Shown piece by piece: positions 45,120 to 52,673 of a DNA stretch of 64,000 bases. The stretch's first letter is position 1, and every line of letters starts with the position of its first letter. Position numbers and translations under genes: made by a program. The stretch spans positions 3,991,501 through 4,055,500 of the forward strand of contig NZ_CP020772.1 of NCBI RefSeq assembly GCF_002097535.1, read 5' to 3'. Origin of the DNA: Halobacillus mangrovi (GTDB lineage: Bacteria; Bacillota; Bacilli; Bacillales; Halobacillaceae). The notes beneath the pieces are model-generated. The model saw nothing but the letters and a program-made list of their open reading frames with translations. It made no database searches and was not told where the DNA came from.

Positions 45120-45842
45120 TTACTTTAGTGTAGCCAAATAGGTATAAACGTCGTTTAAATTTTCAAACCCTAACTCTTGTATATCCTTAATGCTTTCAAC
45201 CCAAAGCTTTGCAGTGGCCATCGCATCATGGAAGGCGTGGTGTCGATGCTTAATACTGATTCCGTAATGAGCACAGCAGTCATCAAGACTAACCAGGTCC
45301 TTCTCCTTATGAATGATTTTAGTTAAGAAAGATGTATCGACAATCCGGTGTTGAAAGTTTTTCCTTAAAGCTAGCCACGTTGCATGATTCATAAATTGCT
45401 TTTCGTGGTTTGCATGGTGAGCGACTAGCGTATCTGTTTTAACATAAGAGTAAAATTCCTTCAGCACATCACGCATAGCCGGAGATTCTAATAACATCTC
45501 CCCCGTAATTCCTGTGAGCTTTGTAATCTCTTCTGAAGGTGCTGACTCACTATAGACAAGAGAATAAAAGGACTGATCCTCAAGTATTTTCGTCCCCTCT
45601 ACTTTCACAGCCCCAATCGAAAGAATTTCGTCTCCCTTGTAAGGGTAAAACCCTGTCGTTTCTAAGTCGAACACCACCACTGAAAGTTCTTCAAATGGAA
45701 CAACAAGTGTATCTTTATTCCGCAGTTGTCGTTCCAGATTTCTTACATAAGCCACTTTTGAAGGGTCATTCTGATTCAAAGAAGAGAATCCGCTGCCAAG
45801 CCTGTCAGACAAATCTTTTACGAATTGTACAAAAGGATTCAT
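45120..45842 (-). CDS. DEDDh 3'-5' exonuclease (DnaQ/epsilon-like)
   Basis: A protein of 240 residues. The exonuclease domain (about 52-230) has Exo I VVFDLETTGF (Asp and Glu metal ligands), Exo II around TLVAHHANHEKQFMNH and Exo III HHAFHDAMATAKLW with the His and Asp of the DEDDh class. The N-terminal 50 residues are extra. It may trim DNA or RNA ends. The start overlaps the DUF294 stop by four bases, so the pair is translationally coupled. A DUF294/exonuclease pair is a recurring neighbourhood in bacteria. Confidence 0.85.
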   Translation of the reverse strand: MNPFVQFVKDLSDRLGSGFSSLNQNDPSKVAYVRNLERQLRNKDTLVVPFEELSVVVFDLETTGFYPYKGDEILSIGAVKVEGTKILEDQSFYSLVYSESAPSEEITKLTGITGEMLLESPAMRDVLKEFYSYVKTDTLVAHHANHEKQFMNHATWLALRKNFQHRIVDTSFLTKIIHKEKDLVSLDDCCAHYGISIKHRHHAFHDAMATAKLWVESIKDIQELGFENLNDVYTYLATLK

Positions 45843-46807
45843 AAGGCATCCTCTTCATGAAGCATTGATTTACATTTGGAGAAGAGCTTTTGTCCTCTTC
45901 TAATTAGAAACTTTAACTTCTGTTTGTCCTGTTTTGACAGTACTTTAAGTGGAAGTAAGTGTACCTTTTCATAGCTTGTTGCTGACTTTCTAAACTTCAG
46001 ACGAAAATCAAGCAGTTCTCGAAAATTCTTTTCGTAAGCTTCAAGAAAAGGGTAATTATAAGTAAGGATTTCGAATCTATCAAGTGTCGGTGCAGCGCAA
46101 ACCCCTTTTTTCAATGCTAAAACTCTAAGGGCGTTGACGTATGGAAAATAAGCCGTTTGTTTTAAATGAATTTCTCCATCCAACCCTTGCCCATGTTCAG
46201 GAAGGAGCTGCCCAAAAACCCCCACTCCCTTTTTAATAAATTCAAAGTTGTCAATGAGACGGGAATATAAGTGGGGATGATCTTCCAACATAGAAAAAGA
46301 AGCATTTTTAAGCTGCATCAGCAAATTCTCATCCCCAACTAACACCCTTGAATCAATAAAGATCGAGAAGTTCCTAAGCGACTGCCAACTTTCCTCAAGC
46401 AGCCATTCTTCTATCAGCTTCTCAAAAGAACCCATGGACTGACACCATAATGCATTGGATGCCATCACATTTCCTTCACACTTTTCATAGCCGACGACAC
46501 CCATTCCATAACTAATTTCCGTTCCGAGATTTAAAAAGTATTCCTGAAAATCGGTAGAACCATTGAATATTATTCCATGATCCTGGTCGCTCCAAACAGA
46601 CTGTTCACACCGACCAGCACTGCCCATGAGAAAAAATGCAAAAGGAGCAGGCGGTTTCCCCTGCTCACTTTCAATATGATCCATTGCAATTCTTACGGTT
46701 TGGTACATGACTTGATCGTGGAACGCATTCAATTGATGGTGGTCATCAGCGACTGAATCAAGCGTTTCTTCTCGCCATTGCTTGATTTCTTCATACGTAT
46801 TGAACAC
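45839..46807 (-). CDS. DUF294 (GlnD-like) nucleotidyltransferase-like protein
   Basis: A protein of 322 residues. The nucleotidyltransferase motif appears as GSAGRCEQSVWSDQDHGIIF (about 61-80), the GS-x-D-x-D pattern of the Pol-beta/GlnD superfamily, followed by the DUF294 C-terminal helical domain. Many relatives carry N-terminal CBS or cNMP domains; this one does not. GlnD uridylylates PII in nitrogen control. Position directly behind the ammonium transporter, where glnK usually sits, suggests a role in nitrogen signalling, but no PII gene is in the window. Coupled to the exonuclease gene. Confidence 0.78.
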   Translation of the reverse strand: MFNTYEEIKQWREETLDSVADDHHQLNAFHDQVMYQTVRIAMDHIESEQGKPPAPFAFFLMGSAGRCEQSVWSDQDHGIIFNGSTDFQEYFLNLGTEISYGMGVVGYEKCEGNVMASNALWCQSMGSFEKLIEEWLLEESWQSLRNFSIFIDSRVLVGDENLLMQLKNASFSMLEDHPHLYSRLIDNFEFIKKGVGVFGQLLPEHGQGLDGEIHLKQTAYFPYVNALRVLALKKGVCAAPTLDRFEILTYNYPFLEAYEKNFRELLDFRLKFRKSATSYEKVHLLPLKVLSKQDKQKLKFLIRRGQKLFSKCKSMLHEEDAL

Positions 46808-46832
46808 AACTATCCATTCCTTTTATTTAAGT

Positions 46833-48101
46833 TTAAGCTCCAGACTTAGAATTAGGCGGTGTTAAGTTCTCAGGATATCCATAGCCACCGTGTTCACTCA
46901 AGTCCAGCCCCATAATCTCCTCTTCTTCTGTAACACGAAGTCCTCCCATTGCTTTATCCATGACCTTTAAAATAATGTAGGATACCAAAAAGGCATATAG
47001 ACCACAGCTTACAACACCGAGAATTTGAATCCCAAGCTGCTCGAATCCACCTCCGTAAAATAAGCCCGGACGTCCAACAGTCGCAAGCTCCGGAGTAGCA
47101 AACAATCCATTGGAGAGAGTTCCCCATACTCCGACGGTTCCGTGTACAGATAACGCAAAGATCGGATCGTCAATTCTTCTTTTATCAAAGAATCTCATAC
47201 TGAAAAATACGAAAGCTCCTCCAACAAGTCCAATGATGACGGCAGCCCAAGGTTCCACAAAGGCACAAGAAGCAGTAATTGCAACAAGACCAGCCAGTGC
47301 TCCATTTAACGTAGTCGGAACATCCGCTTTTCCTGTAACCGCCCATACCATCAACATAGCTCCCACAGCTCCAGCCCCGGCAGCTAATTGAGTATTTAAC
47401 GCTACATATCCAAAGAAAGCATCTGCGACACCAAAAGTACTTCCTGCGTTAAAGCCGAACCAGCCGACCCAAAGGATTAATACACCCAGAGCTGTAAACA
47501 CCTGGTTGTGTCCAGCGATTTCATTGGAAGAACCATCTTTATTGTATTTACCAATACGCGGCTTCAAAATGATTGTTGCCGCAAGAGCTGCCATGGCTCC
47601 CGTTAAGTGTACGACGGTTGAGCCTGCGAAATCCTGCTTGCCGTGTTCAGCTAACCAGCCGCCTCCCCAGATCCAGTGAGCAATAACCGGATAGATGACG
47701 ATAGAAAATAAGATAGCAAAAATGACATAGGCAATTAATTTCGCCCGTTCAGCAAACCCACCGAATGCAATCGTCATCGCTATAGCTGCAAATGCCAGCT
47801 GGAATAGGAAGTCAACAGATCCGGCAAGACTTTCCCCCATTATTGTTGCATCGCCGTAAAAGAAATTAGATAAACCGATAATCGCATTTCCTTCGCCATA
47901 AATGAGTCCATAACCAAGCGCCCAGAACACAAGGGATACAATTCCTACAGTGAAAACTGTCTTACCAGCAATATGGCCGGCATTTTTCATTCTCGTCGAC
48001 CCAGCTTCAAGTAAAATAAATCCTCCCTGCATGAGCAAAACAAGAATCGTACACACGATAATCCACAAGTTATTCATCAAGAACGTTGCATCCATTTCCA
48101 A
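46833..48101 (-). CDS. amt: ammonium transporter, Amt family
   Basis: A 422-residue channel with eleven membrane helices. LWIIVCTILVLLMQGGFILLEAGSTR opens the protein, the pore histidines lie in VVHLTGAMAALAATIILKPRIGKY and SVHGTVGVWGTL, and the cytoplasmic tail is short. It takes up ammonium when nitrogen is scarce. The TTG start (48099-48101) has GGAG five bases upstream; an ATG two codons later is an alternative. A TnrA box and sigma-A promoter precede it. DUF294 and exonuclease genes follow after 25 bases and are probably co-transcribed. Confidence 0.94.
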   Translation of the reverse strand: MEMDATFLMNNLWIIVCTILVLLMQGGFILLEAGSTRMKNAGHIAGKTVFTVGIVSLVFWALGYGLIYGEGNAIIGLSNFFYGDATIMGESLAGSVDFLFQLAFAAIAMTIAFGGFAERAKLIAYVIFAILFSIVIYPVIAHWIWGGGWLAEHGKQDFAGSTVVHLTGAMAALAATIILKPRIGKYNKDGSSNEIAGHNQVFTALGVLILWVGWFGFNAGSTFGVADAFFGYVALNTQLAAGAGAVGAMLMVWAVTGKADVPTTLNGALAGLVAITASCAFVEPWAAVIIGLVGGAFVFFSMRFFDKRRIDDPIFALSVHGTVGVWGTLSNGLFATPELATVGRPGLFYGGGFEQLGIQILGVVSCGLYAFLVSYIILKVMDKAMGGLRVTEEEEIMGLDLSEHGGYGYPENLTPPNSKSGA

Positions 48102-48285: not shown

Positions 48286-49611
48286 TTAAATCACTGACAC
48301 GATATGACTTTCTTTTTCATATTCCATCACGGCTTCTTCAAAGACAGCCAACCCATGATCAATCTGGTCTTTCGTTACAACCAAAGGCGGGATCATACGG
48401 ATGACTTCCTGATGTTTCCCGCACAAATAGAACAAGACGCCTTTTTCTAGAGACAGATCTAAGATCTTCATCATCCCGTCTCCATCAGGAGCTCCTGTTT
48501 CAGGATCAATGATTTCAATCCCGATCATAAGACCGACACCTCTGATATCACCGATCACTTTATGATTTTCCCTGATTTTCTTTAGCCGCTCTATCGCATA
48601 AGCACCAAGCTGTTTCGAGTTCTCAACTAACCTTTCCTCTTCAAGCACATCCAATGTAGCAAGAGCTGCCGAGCAGGCGATCGGGTTTCCACCGAATGTG
48701 GTTCCATGAGTGCCCATCGGCCATTTGCTCATAAGTTCTTTAGAAGCAACCGTTGCGCTGAGCGGCATTCCTGATGCTATACCTTTTGCAATGGCCATAA
48801 CATCCGGAGTAACTCCAAAGGTTTGAGCAGCAAACCATTCCCCAGTACGTCCGAACCCTGTTTGGACTTCATCAAAAATCAGCAGGATGCCATGCTGGTC
48901 ACATACCTCACGTACCTTTTGCAGCCATTCTTTTGGAGGAATAATATATCCACCTTCCCCAAGGACCGGCTCCACAATCACACAAGCTACTTCCTCAGGC
49001 GTCACCTGATGGTCGAAAAGCATTTCAAAATCTTTTTCCAGCTTATTCACACAGTATTCAGAAACGTCTTCACCTTCTGGACAGCTCGAAGCATCCGCAT
49101 AAGGAAGCTGATAGGTCAGGCCATTCGGCTGCAGAAATTTCCGGTATTTACTTTTAGAAGTACTAACACCAAGAGCACCAAGCGACCTTCCATGGAAACA
49201 GCCAGTAAAAGATATAGTATAGGGCCGCTTTGTTGCGTATTTAGCAAGCTTTAACGCCCCTTCAATGGCTTCTGTTCCACTGTTTGCAAAAAAGAGGCAA
49301 TCAAGATTTCCCGGCAATAGGTTTTGAAGACGATCAGCGACTCTTAATATGGAATCATACATGATCACTCCTGAGGGGCCATGCATGAGTTGATCTGCCC
49401 CTTCTTTAATAGCTTGTACAACTTTAGGGTGACGATGACCTGTATTAGCTACAGCGATGCCTGAAGTGAAATCTAAATATTTCTTTCCATCGGTACCATA
49501 GTAGTAGCAGCCTTCTTCTTTTTCTACAGGAAGGTTCGGATGGTCCTTGGCCATACTCGGCGCTAGCAAATCTGGCAATCGTTTATATAAATCTTCGAAT
49601 GATGGGTTCAT
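48286..49611 (-). CDS. class III pyridoxal-phosphate aminotransferase
   Basis: A 441-residue enzyme of the GabT/ornithine transaminase group. [21 protein letters not shown] contacts the cofactor phosphate, [19 protein letters not shown] holds the PLP-stacking Asp, and the Schiff-base Lys lies in [15 protein letters not shown]. It transfers an omega- or alpha-amino group; 4-aminobutyrate, beta-alanine or a diamine are possible donors. It follows the YjiH gene by 13 bases under a sigma-54 promoter, which in Bacillus typically drives amino acid catabolism. GGAGG is 9 bases before the ATG. Confidence 0.85.
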
Positions 49612-49624
49612 AATCGTTTACCTC

Positions 49625-51022
49625 CTAGAATATGAAATGAGCGATGATTACGATGATCGGAAGAGTGATGACGGTACGCTGCAAGAAAATAATGGCTAAC
49701 TCTGCTACGGAGATAGGAATCTTCGATTTTACCAGCAGGATTCCTATTTCAGACATGTAGATCAGCTGAGTTAAAGAAATGGCAGCAATAACAAAGCGGG
49801 TCAATTCACTCTCAATTCCAGAACCAATAACAGCCGGCAGGAACATGTCCGCAAAGCCGACAAGCATAGCCGGAGCTGCCTGCGCCGCTTCAGGAATCTG
49901 CATCCACTGAAGAATCGGAACAATCGGCATTGATAAGTAGGTGAAGAACGGCGTAAATTCAGCAATGATTAAGGCCACTGTCCCTAACGCCATAACCAGC
50001 GGAATTAACGCAAAGTAGATATCAAGTACCGTTTGCACCCCCTGGGTGGCTACCCCTTTTACTCCCCTTACCTCAGAAGCTTTACTCAGAGCTTTTTCCA
50101 GACCCCACTTGAAATTGGAGGTCCCTTCAGGCGTATCCTCTGAAATTTTTTGTCCAGTTCCTTCGTAATACGTGTCTGCTTTTTTAGACAACGGCGGGAT
50201 ACGCGGACAAACAAAGGCAGCTACTAACCCTGCGATAACTACCGTTAAATAGAAAGGAACAAAGTACTGCTCTAATCCGATAAAACTTATAACTACCAAA
50301 CTGAAAGCAATCGAGTTGATTGAGAAGTTCGTCGCGATGATCGACGCTTCACGCTTCGTATAGTACCCTTCTTCATATTGCTTCGTTGTAATTAAAACGC
50401 CAACCGTCCCCGCTCCCATCCAGGAAGCCAAGGCATCTATCGATGAACGCCCAGGAAGCTTGAATACAGGTCTCATTACCTTACGAAGCATCGTACCGAT
50501 AAAATCCATAAGACCGAATTCCATCAATAAAGGCATCAAAAATCCAGCAAAGAGGAACCACGCAGCAAGCACCGGGACCAATGAATATAGCATCGTACCG
50601 CCAGTTACATCGGAAATGATAAATTCAGGACCTACAGCAAATAAAGTCATAAGGGCAAATACCGCACCAATTAGACGCGTAATCGTCCAAAACGCATTTA
50701 CATAGAATAGCTGTTTCATAAAGGCGTTATTCAAAATGAAATTCGGCTTCAATCCTTTAGCGATGACTGGAAGGATTGCAGATACTATCAAAATCCCCGT
50801 CATAAGACCTGGCAGGACAGGCTCCAGATAAGCTTGGATGGACTCCGCCATCACACCGACTCCTATCGTAATTTTACCTCCATACGATATAGGAAAAAGA
50901 AACAATAAGACCCCTAGCAAGGACGGGATAAGAAACCAGGAAAAATTCCTAACCGTTCTGTTATTGACCGAATCTTGACTCCACTGTTCTTCTTCAAATG
51001 TTTTCTTCTGCTTTACCTCCAT
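49625..51022 (-). CDS. YjiH family membrane protein
   Basis: A 465-residue polytopic protein with about ten membrane helices and the nucleoside-recognition (Gate) region in the half after RSSIDALASWMGAGTVGVLITTKQYEEGYYTKREASIIATNFS. E. coli YjiH/YjiG and related proteins are predicted transporters with no proven substrate. Here it is the first gene of an operon with an aminotransferase, which argues for uptake of the amino compound that the enzyme consumes. A sigma-54 promoter lies about 60 bp upstream and AAGGAG stands 8 bases before the ATG. Confidence 0.8.
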   Translation of the reverse strand: MEVKQKKTFEEEQWSQDSVNNRTVRNFSWFLIPSLLGVLLFLFPISYGGKITIGVGVMAESIQAYLEPVLPGLMTGILIVSAILPVIAKGLKPNFILNNAFMKQLFYVNAFWTITRLIGAVFALMTLFAVGPEFIISDVTGGTMLYSLVPVLAAWFLFAGFLMPLLMEFGLMDFIGTMLRKVMRPVFKLPGRSSIDALASWMGAGTVGVLITTKQYEEGYYTKREASIIATNFSINSIAFSLVVISFIGLEQYFVPFYLTVVIAGLVAAFVCPRIPPLSKKADTYYEGTGQKISEDTPEGTSNFKWGLEKALSKASEVRGVKGVATQGVQTVLDIYFALIPLVMALGTVALIIAEFTPFFTYLSMPIVPILQWMQIPEAAQAAPAMLVGFADMFLPAVIGSGIESELTRFVIAAISLTQLIYMSEIGILLVKSKIPISVAELAIIFLQRTVITLPIIVIIAHFIF

Positions 51023-51082: not shown

Positions 51083-51099
51083 CGCAAGAAACATGCCAA
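51083..51099 (-). promoter_or_regulatory. sigma-54 (-24/-12) promoter
   Basis: On the minus strand TTGGCAT-GTTTC-TTGCG gives GG and GC separated by exactly 10 bases, an excellent match to the RpoN consensus TGGCAC-N5-TTGCW. It lies between the activator gene and the YjiH gene and points at the latter. Confidence 0.85.
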
Positions 51100-51103
51100 G
51101 CTT

Positions 51104-52465
51104 TTATTTTATTCCGTATTTTTTAAGTTTTCTGACTATGCTTGGTTGACTAATCCCTAATACTTCTGCCATTCTCGTTGTTGTTTTATATAATAGCCTG
51201 GCCTTTTGAAGTTGGTCTCTTTCTACCCGTTCGAGAGTTTTCGGTAGGGATTCTTCAAAATTATTCATTCTTGAATAATCCTTACCTTCCGCTTTATAAT
51301 TATCCGGCAAATCTTCAGGAAGAATGATCGATCTATGGGAAGTCACGACAAGCCGCTCAATCAAATTGGTAAGCTCCCTTACATTCCCCCGCCATTCAAG
51401 CTCGGTCAACTCGTGCAGGACCTCCCGGCTCATCGTTCGTTTTCGTTTATACCTTTTAGTAAAAAGGTCGAGCGCATATTGAATGAGCGGAACGATATCC
51501 TCTTTTCTTTCTCTCAACGGAGGAATCGTGATCGGAACAACATTTAGTCGGAAATAAAGATCTTCACGAAATAAATTATTTTCAACCGATTCTTTCAATC
51601 GCTTATTCGTTGCGCTCACTAGGCGAAAATCGGCACGGATTTCTTTTCGTCCGCCCACTCTATAAAAAGACTTCTCCTGAATAAGCTTCAACACCTTAAC
51701 TTGGTTAGAGAGGGACAGTTCGCCCACTTCATCCAGAAACAAAGTCCCTTGATCGGCCAGTTCAGCGAACCCTTTTTTTCCTCCTTTGGCCGCTCCTGTA
51801 AAAGAGCCGGATTCATAACCAAATAACTCTGCTTCAAACAAGGATTCAGGAATGGCCCCGCAATTGACTTCTATAAACGGCCCACCCGCCCTCTCGCTTT
51901 TTTCATGGATCATTTTCGCAATTTCCGTTTTACCAACACCTGATTCGCCGAGAAGCAGTACACTTACATCCACACCAGCAATCTGATTGGCAGTGGCCAT
52001 GATCTTGCGCATCGGTTCGCTCTTTGCAATAAAGCTGCTTTCATTTTGCTGCTTTAAATACTCGAGCTCTTTTCTGACCCTCTCCATCTCCTCTGTCATT
52101 TCTTCCATGCCCGCTTTAATTTCCATCAATTCGGTTACATCATGCGAATAACTCACTACACGAACCAATTTATTGTTCTTATCAAAGACCGGCAAAGCTG
52201 TAACGAGTAATTTCTTTTCGCCTCCAACCGTTTGAACAAACGTGACTCTCTCTTTCTTTTCTACAACCATTGGAGTAGCCAGAGGCGTAAAAAGCCCTTG
52301 TTTTTCAAGGTCGTATACAGACTTTCCAATTAAATCGTCTGCATTCACGTCATAAACATCACCCGTCCCCTTACTCACCTTCACAATTGTTCCGTCCGTC
52401 TTCGTTACAAGGATATCCTCCTGGAGAGAATGAAAGATTGTTTTATACTCATCCCACTCTGTCAT
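51104..52465 (-). CDS. sigma-54-dependent transcriptional activator (PAS-AAA+-HTH)
   Basis: A protein of 453 residues. PAS sensor at about 8-110, a coiled helix (about 113-140), and an AAA+ domain (about 145-375). The AAA+ domain has Walker A LLGESGVGKTE, the sigma-54 contact loop as GSFTGA (usual GAFTGA, second residue changed), Walker B GTLFLDEVGEL and the sensor region LFREDLYFRLNVVPI. A TyrR-like HTH lies at about 415-453 (TRMAEVLGISQPSIVRKLKKYGIK). It acts like RocR or BkdR. The target is the sigma-54 promoter 5 bp past its stop. AAGGGG precedes the ATG. Confidence 0.9.
   Translation of the reverse strand: MTEWDEYKTIFHSLQEDILVTKTDGTIVKVSKGTGDVYDVNADDLIGKSVYDLEKQGLFTPLATPMVVEKKERVTFVQTVGGEKKLLVTALPVFDKNNKLVRVVSYSHDVTELMEIKAGMEEMTEEMERVRKELEYLKQQNESSFIAKSEPMRKIMATANQIAGVDVSVLLLGESGVGKTEIAKMIHEKSERAGGPFIEVNCGAIPESLFEAELFGYESGSFTGAAKGGKKGFAELADQGTLFLDEVGELSLSNQVKVLKLIQEKSFYRVGGRKEIRADFRLVSATNKRLKESVENNLFREDLYFRLNVVPITIPPLRERKEDIVPLIQYALDLFTKRYKRKRTMSREVLHELTELEWRGNVRELTNLIERLVVTSHRSIILPEDLPDNYKAEGKDYSRMNNFEESLPKTLERVERDQLQKARLLYKTTTRMAEVLGISQPSIVRKLKKYGIK
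51260..51279. promoter_or_regulatory. upstream activator site inside the activator gene
   Basis: ATTATTCA-TTCT-TGAATAAT is a perfect 8+8 palindrome about 170 bp upstream of the -24 box, a usual distance for sigma-54 enhancers. The same core, TATTCA-N4-TGAATA, occurs twice before the activator gene. Confidence 0.7.
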
Positions 52466-52479
52466 CCAATCGCCCCTTA

Positions 52480-52497
52480 TTATTCATATTTGAATAA
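52480..52497. promoter_or_regulatory. TTATTCA-N4-TGAATAA palindrome at the activator start
   Basis: A 7+7 perfect palindrome ending 15 bp before the activator ATG, overlapping the position of the ribosome site region. Binding here would repress the activator's own gene. Confidence 0.65.
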
Positions 52498-52545
52498 CAC
52501 ACTCACGAAACCTGACAACCATATGTAGTTTGAAAATTCCTAATT

Positions 52546-52561
52546 TATTCACTAATGAATA
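52546..52561. promoter_or_regulatory. TATTCA-N4-TGAATA palindrome upstream of the activator gene
   Basis: A perfect 6+6 palindrome 81 bp before the activator ATG. It is the third copy of the motif in this 1.3-kb region. The remaining AT-rich sequence from 52562 to 52673 shows no gene. Confidence 0.6.
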
Positions 52562-52673
52562 TGCATTGCATATATCCTAACATAAAAATGTATAGTTGTG
52601 TTTAATTATTTAGTAATTTGTATATTTATTAATGTTGTCAGGTAACATTTTTCTTTCAAAGCATACCTCACAC

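Follow-up and report, generated by a model that had tools for sequence, protein, structure and literature searches.

In this study, we provide evidence that the palindrome TATTCA-N4-TGAATA, found three times within 1.3 kb of Halobacillus mangrovi DNA, is very probably the binding dyad of the sigma-54 activator encoded beside it, with predicted roles as operator, distal enhancer and proximal enhancer. The window analysed, a stretch of 64 kb, carries on its minus strand, in this order, the activator gene (51104..52465; 453 aa, with PAS, AAA+ (sigma-54 activation domain) and TyrR-type HTH by Pfam), a sigma-54 promoter, a gene for a YjiH-like membrane protein with a nucleoside-recognition Gate domain (49625..51022; Pfam PF07670, 2.4e-14) and, after a gap of 13 bp, a gene for a class-III aminotransferase (48286..49611; NCBIfam NF005993, 744.6 bits against a cut-off of 574; Pfam PF00202). 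The membrane protein is presumably YjiH, although a Pfam/NCBIfam profile search returned no match to a family model of that name; its gene is probably the first of the target operon, with a predicted transporter role, and the aminotransferase gene is the second. Beyond the latter, the same strand carries genes for an ammonium transporter, a DUF294 nucleotidyltransferase-like protein and a DnaQ-like exonuclease (45120-48101). The ammonium transporter gene starts 184 bp downstream of the aminotransferase gene, with no terminator-like site found between the two, and read-through into it and the DUF294 gene is possible; it was left out of the operon because tblastn gave no match in the Halobacillus and Thalassobacillus loci (L004-L007), which reach about 3 kb beyond the aminotransferase.

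The activator has the make-up of a sigma-54 enhancer-binding protein. Its Pfam matches are Sigma54_activat (PF00158, 4.7e-64), AAA_lid_14, HTH_50 and PAS_4, a Walker A motif and a GAFTGA-type loop (GSFTGA, residue 220) can be read in the sequence, the HTH is C-terminal, a -24/-12 promoter adjoins the gene, and the genome has one sigma-54 gene. The original prediction had described the HTH as TyrR-like and the sites as a spaced dyad of the TyrR kind; the HTH_50 match (34.3 bits, cut-off 27) and the dyad itself, with arms of 6-8 bp and an N4 spacer, place the protein in that group, and the dyad of GcsR has the same form in the part of that report available (PMC4894688). Two closer identities were rejected at the NCBIfam equivalog cut-offs, namely orthology to TyrR of E. 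coli (251.8 bits against 576) and to PrdR, the proline reductase regulator, which is the best NCBIfam match but falls far short (398.7 bits against 795). In the accessible text, the PrdR motif is a TGT separated from an ACA by 10-12 bp (PMC6615313). A predicted structure of the activator was not used, its mean pLDDT being 36 from a 5-row alignment.

The promoter element TGGCATGTTTCTTGC (51084..51098, minus strand; GG-N10-GC), identified by pattern search, is near-consensus, begins 5 nt past the activator stop and lies 61 bp before the YjiH start. As 0.48 exact copies of TGGCA-N6-TTGC are expected in the window and two are present, the element alone is not improbable there, and it is conservation that carries the case: a -24/-12 element stands within 120 nt past the activator stop in 78 of 79 orthologous loci, at 2-11 nt in 77 and at 73 nt in one. 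The one locus of the 79 without a recognisable element at this place, L104 (G412), is the most distant orthologue in the order sample and has four upstream dyads. A second -24/-12-like sequence, TGGCAGTACATTTGC, occurs at 2413-2427 of the window (minus strand).

All three palindromes were found as the original prediction had placed them, in 8+8, 7+7 and 6+6 forms (none is assigned a strand). The coding-embedded dyad ATTATTCA-N4-TGAATAAT (8+8; 51260..51279, core 51262-51277), the predicted proximal enhancer, was located by pattern search; it covers activator codons 397-402 (Y-S-R-M-N-N) within the reading frame, with about 172 bp between its centre and the -24 GG downstream. Dyad 2 (7+7; 52480..52497, core 52481-52496) ends 14 nt before the activator ATG and dyad 1 (6+6; 52546..52561) lies 65 bp further upstream, both being predicted, from pattern search and conservation, to act as operator and distal enhancer. 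In the genome of 4,142,697 bases the exact pattern has exactly these three copies, all at the activator gene, against one copy of the reversed pattern used as control. Allowing one mismatch, the same three dyads alone appear in the window, where dinucleotide shuffles predict 0.30 and 1 of 100 shuffles reached three. At this stringency the genome holds 27 matches (14 for the control), 24 of them scattered elsewhere, and we claim no further regulon targets from these 24 or from 4 extra exact sites in relatives. A loose -24/-12 pattern within 1.5 kb is absent at 19 of these 28 sites and present at 9; in the best of the 9 (L114), the element is near-consensus and lies 379 bp from a dyad with a low score (6.2). 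Conversely, the one-mismatch dyad L119, elsewhere in the genome (G000:C1:1847447-1847462), scores 20.0 and has no sigma-54 promoter within 1.5 kb, thus a dyad match alone does not define a target.

Further evidence comes from orthologous loci. A family scan found an orthologue at 56% identity or more in 15 of 44 whole genomes, and an order-level scan found the activator subfamily at E <= 1e-130 in 68 of 397 genomes; pooled and freed of duplicates, with the distant matches L008-L010 left out, these gave the 79 loci. The original prediction had named absence of the palindromes from orthologous loci as the observation that would speak against it, and what we found instead was conservation: within 300 bp upstream of the activator, all 78 loci that have upstream sequence carry a dyad that departs from the pattern at one position at most, with a similar outcome in held-out orders; the sole miss among the 79, L098, has no upstream sequence, and mono-shuffled upstream regions gave a mean of 0.32 loci of 79. 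Two or more upstream dyads are present in 69 loci at one mismatch and in 78 at two. The spacer is equally fixed: at one mismatch or fewer, 159 upstream sites have N4 against 18 summed over the twelve other spacers of N0-N12, none being at N1-N3, N5 or N6, and the mirror-image pattern at N4 has no upstream site at one mismatch. Exact dyads are at background (0-2 per genome) in the 29 genomes of the family that lack such an orthologue; among orthologue genomes with imperfect dyads, G029 has no exact copy and G022 has one. The dyads are mostly spaced 17-22 bp and 61-72 bp apart (exceptions are 33, 46, 86, 89, 123, 137 and 156), and 61-66 bp apart in the window's clade.

Such conservation might also reflect binding by another regulator, and the arginine repressor is one candidate. 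Its box is built of half-sites TGAAT/ATTCA in the orientation TGAAT-N4-ATTCA, so that the half-sites are shared with the dyad, and tandem dyads 18 bp apart form ARG-box-like junctions in some loci. The order of the half-sites is nevertheless opposite: of 78 upstream regions, 3 contain TGAAT-N4-ATTCA exactly and 66 contain ATTCA-N4-TGAAT exactly, and at one mismatch the former reaches 31 of 78 upstream and 10 of 29 proximal regions where the latter reaches 78 of 78 and 29 of 29. On orientation and these 3 exact copies, the ARG box was rejected as the identity of the dyad. The spacing in the window's clade also departs from such junctions, and the sites follow this activator subfamily rather than its paralogues, which makes a different regulator very unlikely. 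Binding by the adjacent activator is the reading that we retain.

The embedded copy is conserved in an informative way. It is present in 26 of the 79 loci, exactly in 25 of them, 173 nt before the stop (170 in two), and its codons fall between the Pfam AAA lid (ending at residue 396) and HTH_50 (starting at 405). The 26-row alignment has 260 near-invariant degenerate columns, of which 8 use one codon wherever the residue is present, and all four degenerate columns of the dyad (Y397 TAT, S398 TCA, N401 AAT, N402 AAT) are among those 8 (hypergeometric 3.8e-7, a value that ignores phylogeny and takes related sequences as one alignment rather than as independent events); by codon usage, the chance of this codon set in one such gene is about 0.09. 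Constraint on the peptide YSxMNN with no role for the DNA is, in our judgement, extremely unlikely. It would account for the near invariance of Y, S, N and N in the coding-site clade, but leaves the frozen synonymous codons unexplained, and the residues directly before the site vary and orthologues outside the clade lack it. Residue 399, which lies over the spacer, varies freely (R, K, E, N or Y), M, V or L occurs at residue 400 but always from an NTG codon, and L022, with D at 397 and L at 400, still keeps ATTCA-N4-TGAAT; because of these substitutions and the frozen codons, the embedded dyad appears to be conserved as DNA and not as peptide. It thus offers a clear bacterial case of a regulatory site that constrains both codons and amino acids. 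The activator, the dyads and the sigma-54 promoter are ordinary in kind; the coding-embedded copy is unusual, and cleanly conserved.

The place of the third dyad is specific to lineages. Three loci (L023-L025) have no coding dyad and carry one about 100 bp downstream of the -24 element (with one mismatch in L023). In the activator tree, a quick tree whose deeper forks are open, the coding-site loci group as a clade with SH-aLRT support of 99, the downstream-site loci as a second with 100, and the two unite in a joint clade (98). In the other 50 of the 79 loci no convincing dyad is seen close to the promoter (one of them, L063, has a dyad scoring 8.9 at the stop codon), thus a proximal enhancer is not a general requirement. 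The original prediction that the coding copy is the enhancer could therefore hold for one clade (26 of 79) and not as a general statement. Counting dyads that score at least 8 over 78 loci, a score reached by 2.6% of shuffled regions, two upstream plus one proximal dyads are found in 24 of 26 loci of the coding clade (the remaining two have two proximal dyads) and in 3 of 3 of the downstream clade; the other 49 loci have three upstream dyads in 29, two in 17, four in 2 and one in 1. The total, upstream plus proximal, is exactly three in 55 of 78 loci, and the third dyad seems to have moved between lineages.

These loci bear directly on the possibility that the dyads serve autoregulation only, the target promoter being fired from other sites or no specific site and the coding copy being a decoy or incidental. 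Among the 49 loci with upstream sequence that lack a coding or downstream (C or D) site, 48 have no dyad of at least 8 bits in the interval that runs from 500 nt ahead of the stop to 250 nt past it, their dyads lying upstream of the activator apart from chance-level mid-gene matches in 4, and in several clades the upstream dyads adjoin a probable sigma-A -10. Against this, 29 loci carry fixed proximal dyads, and in 10 of 13 distant homologues it is the sigma-54 promoter that has dyads around it, while the region before the activator has none. Moreover, SoxR of Bacillus thuringiensis fires the sigma-54 promoter of soxC, on the far side of its own gene, from a site upstream of soxR at a distance of at least 1.7 kb, according to the portion of the report available (PMC4941409), thus upstream dyads can be enhancers. 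We consider autoregulation alone improbable, and prefer dual roles for the upstream dyads, as operator and as distal enhancer.

The held-out test used a class-level sample of 398 genomes, the loci tested being from other orders, with the pattern fixed beforehand. At E <= 1e-125, 39 of the 398 genomes gave 41 matches; eleven lower-ranked or second matches gave no locus and were left out, 29 loci were new, and 25 were examined after 4 from earlier genomes had been dropped. In the closer loci (54-61% identity), an upstream dyad is present in 12 of 12 at two mismatches or fewer and in 10 of 12 at one or fewer (shuffle means 0.46 and 0.02), 11 of the 12 have two or more, and 10 of the 12 have a -24/-12 element after the stop. 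By the pattern used no such element was seen in L140 and L141, nor in L152 among the distant loci; a single dyad is found in L138 here, and in L086. In the distant loci (46-51% identity), the upstream dyad is absent in 13 of 13, and 10 of 13 have a dyad in the interval from 30 nt ahead of the activator stop to 260 nt past it (shuffle mean 0.27), with two or more in 8 of the 10 (shuffle 0); these sites have the spacers N4 (23 sites), N8 (5) and N9 (2), no other spacer of N0-N10 occurring. L150, L152 and L156 have a dyad in neither region, and L153 and L155 have a weak site just downstream of -24. Each of L159-L162 has three dyads upstream of the -24 GG, at distances of 112-113, 93-94 and 60 bp, which is the textbook place of an enhancer. 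The same subfamily (46% identity) has a different aminotransferase (38-39% identical) and no dyad before the activator. At two mismatches or fewer and over these two regions, 15 paralogue loci of the home family (about 40-44% identity) have the dyad downstream in 0 and upstream in 1, and a one-mismatch dyad lies about 1 kb from the activator in the paralogue loci L031 and L032. The HTH region (GISQPSVVRKLKKY-like) is common to closer and distant held-out groups and some paralogues are similar too, therefore that helix alone does not explain specificity.

At the activator's own promoter, a candidate extended -10 element (TGTTAGGAT; 52574..52579, minus strand) for sigma-A is weak in the window, and several relatives have clearer TATAAT-like elements at about the same place; the -10 search had no shuffle control. 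In 12 of 14 family-f20 loci (L041-L054) a TATAAT-like element is followed by the first dyad at +7 relative to the estimated start, and in 11 of the 15 loci L065-L078 and L080 the dyad begins at -6 or -7; in the remaining loci the best-scoring -10 element varies in place. A dyad at such a distance from the -10 would be in operator position. The original prediction took the palindromes both as the activator's binding site and as a sign of autorepression; the former is supported by their conservation, and the latter, argued from position, stays a suggestion for the window, made also by analogy.

Taken together, we propose that one activator dimer would bind each TATTCA-N4-TGAATA dyad. The two dyads at the activator start would form an operator limiting its own sigma-A transcription and also a distal enhancer, and the third, in the linker codons between AAA+ lid and HTH, would be the proximal enhancer. 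The PAS domain might sense a small molecule, probably one that the transporter and aminotransferase take as substrate; with dimers bound at all three dyads, the AAA+ hexamer would then assemble and the DNA would loop, and sigma-54 polymerase would be opened at the promoter past the activator stop for expression of yjiH and the aminotransferase gene. A more speculative extension, which we find possible but doubtful, is a self-enclosing switch, with the activator gene inside the loop and one hexamer (three dimers on three dyads) closing its own promoter while opening the target, the third dyad free to move and the linker peptide YSxMNN dictated by the DNA. If true, a DNA site would have dictated the linker peptide of the very protein that binds it. 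Apart from this, the dyad is a sequence-defined predicted operator for an uncharacterised activator subfamily, and its placements form a natural series of enhancer positions for one activator type (1.4 kb upstream across the activator gene, within the activator's codons, past the promoter, and at the classical site), with which the position independence of sigma-54 enhancers could be tested using one protein and one dyad throughout.

Regarding the ligand, all 11 loci whose downstream genes were catalogued contain the aminotransferase gene, together with yjiH in 7 and another membrane protein in 4. The transporter is exchanged between lineages: it is yjiH or an SSF sodium:solute symporter, the latter by Pfam in L068 and L091 (SSF-family sodium symporter) and with a similar N-terminus in L074 and L081. 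Gene order varies as well, with either yjiH or the aminotransferase gene coming first. In L020 (G015) the yjiH alignment is split into overlapping pieces that are out of frame, pointing to either a frameshift or a sequencing error. In the closer held-out loci L138, L139 and L146 neither yjiH nor the aminotransferase was matched within 1.5 kb. The operon looks like one for taking up and transaminating a single small molecule. GABA aminotransferases and amino-acid racemases are among the PDB neighbours of the aminotransferase, and an amino acid or amine as ligand, as first proposed, fits a class-III aminotransferase.

The literature searched, which excluded subscription papers and supplements, yielded no earlier account of the activator, dyad or embedded enhancer, and no paper joining YjiH, sigma-54 and an aminotransferase. 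In its accessible part, a 2025 survey names aminotransferases as one class of sigma-54 target enriched in Bacilli (PMC12316311), and PMC4348106, likewise available in part, was also consulted on the topic. The known systems compared here were likewise available in part, and the likenesses and differences refer to those parts; SoxR and GcsR are close precedents. SoxR, like the window's activator, is a Bacillota sigma-54 activator with a site before its own gene and a target past it, and it represses its own promoter, so that autorepression by an activator of this kind has an experimental precedent; however, its site is an 11-bp inverted repeat with a 7-bp spacer, it controls a sarcosine oxidase operon, and a coding-embedded site is not reported in the text available (PMC4941409). 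GcsR of Pseudomonas aeruginosa is TyrR-like and has three sites of a 7+4+7 dyad (TGTAACG-N4-CGTTCCG) and a sigma-54 target, but its arm is TGTAACG, all three sites are at the target promoter, and it serves the glycine cleavage operon in a different phylum (PMC4894688). GabR of Bacillus thuringiensis shares the PAS-AAA+-HTH architecture, an aminotransferase gene and a -24/-12 promoter, yet it uses a 21-bp repeat near gabT, leaves its own promoter unbound and is encoded inside the gab cluster (PMC4279683, PMC4428206). Regulation of the GabR type, with the repeat at the target only, was rejected for our locus, as dyads precede the activator in all 78 loci, a comparison of regulation type by sequence and not of direct orthology or binding. 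The RocR enhancer of rocG in Bacillus subtilis resembles the D-type sites in being distant and downstream of the promoter, at 1.5 kb there and about 100 bp downstream of -24 here (PMC4941409). Finally, Nla28 of Myxococcus xanthus has half-sites and sigma-54 promoters within coding sequence, but these are 8-bp repeats and lie in target or upstream genes (PMC7910581, PMC9765219), whereas the window's dyad lies within the codons of the activator itself.
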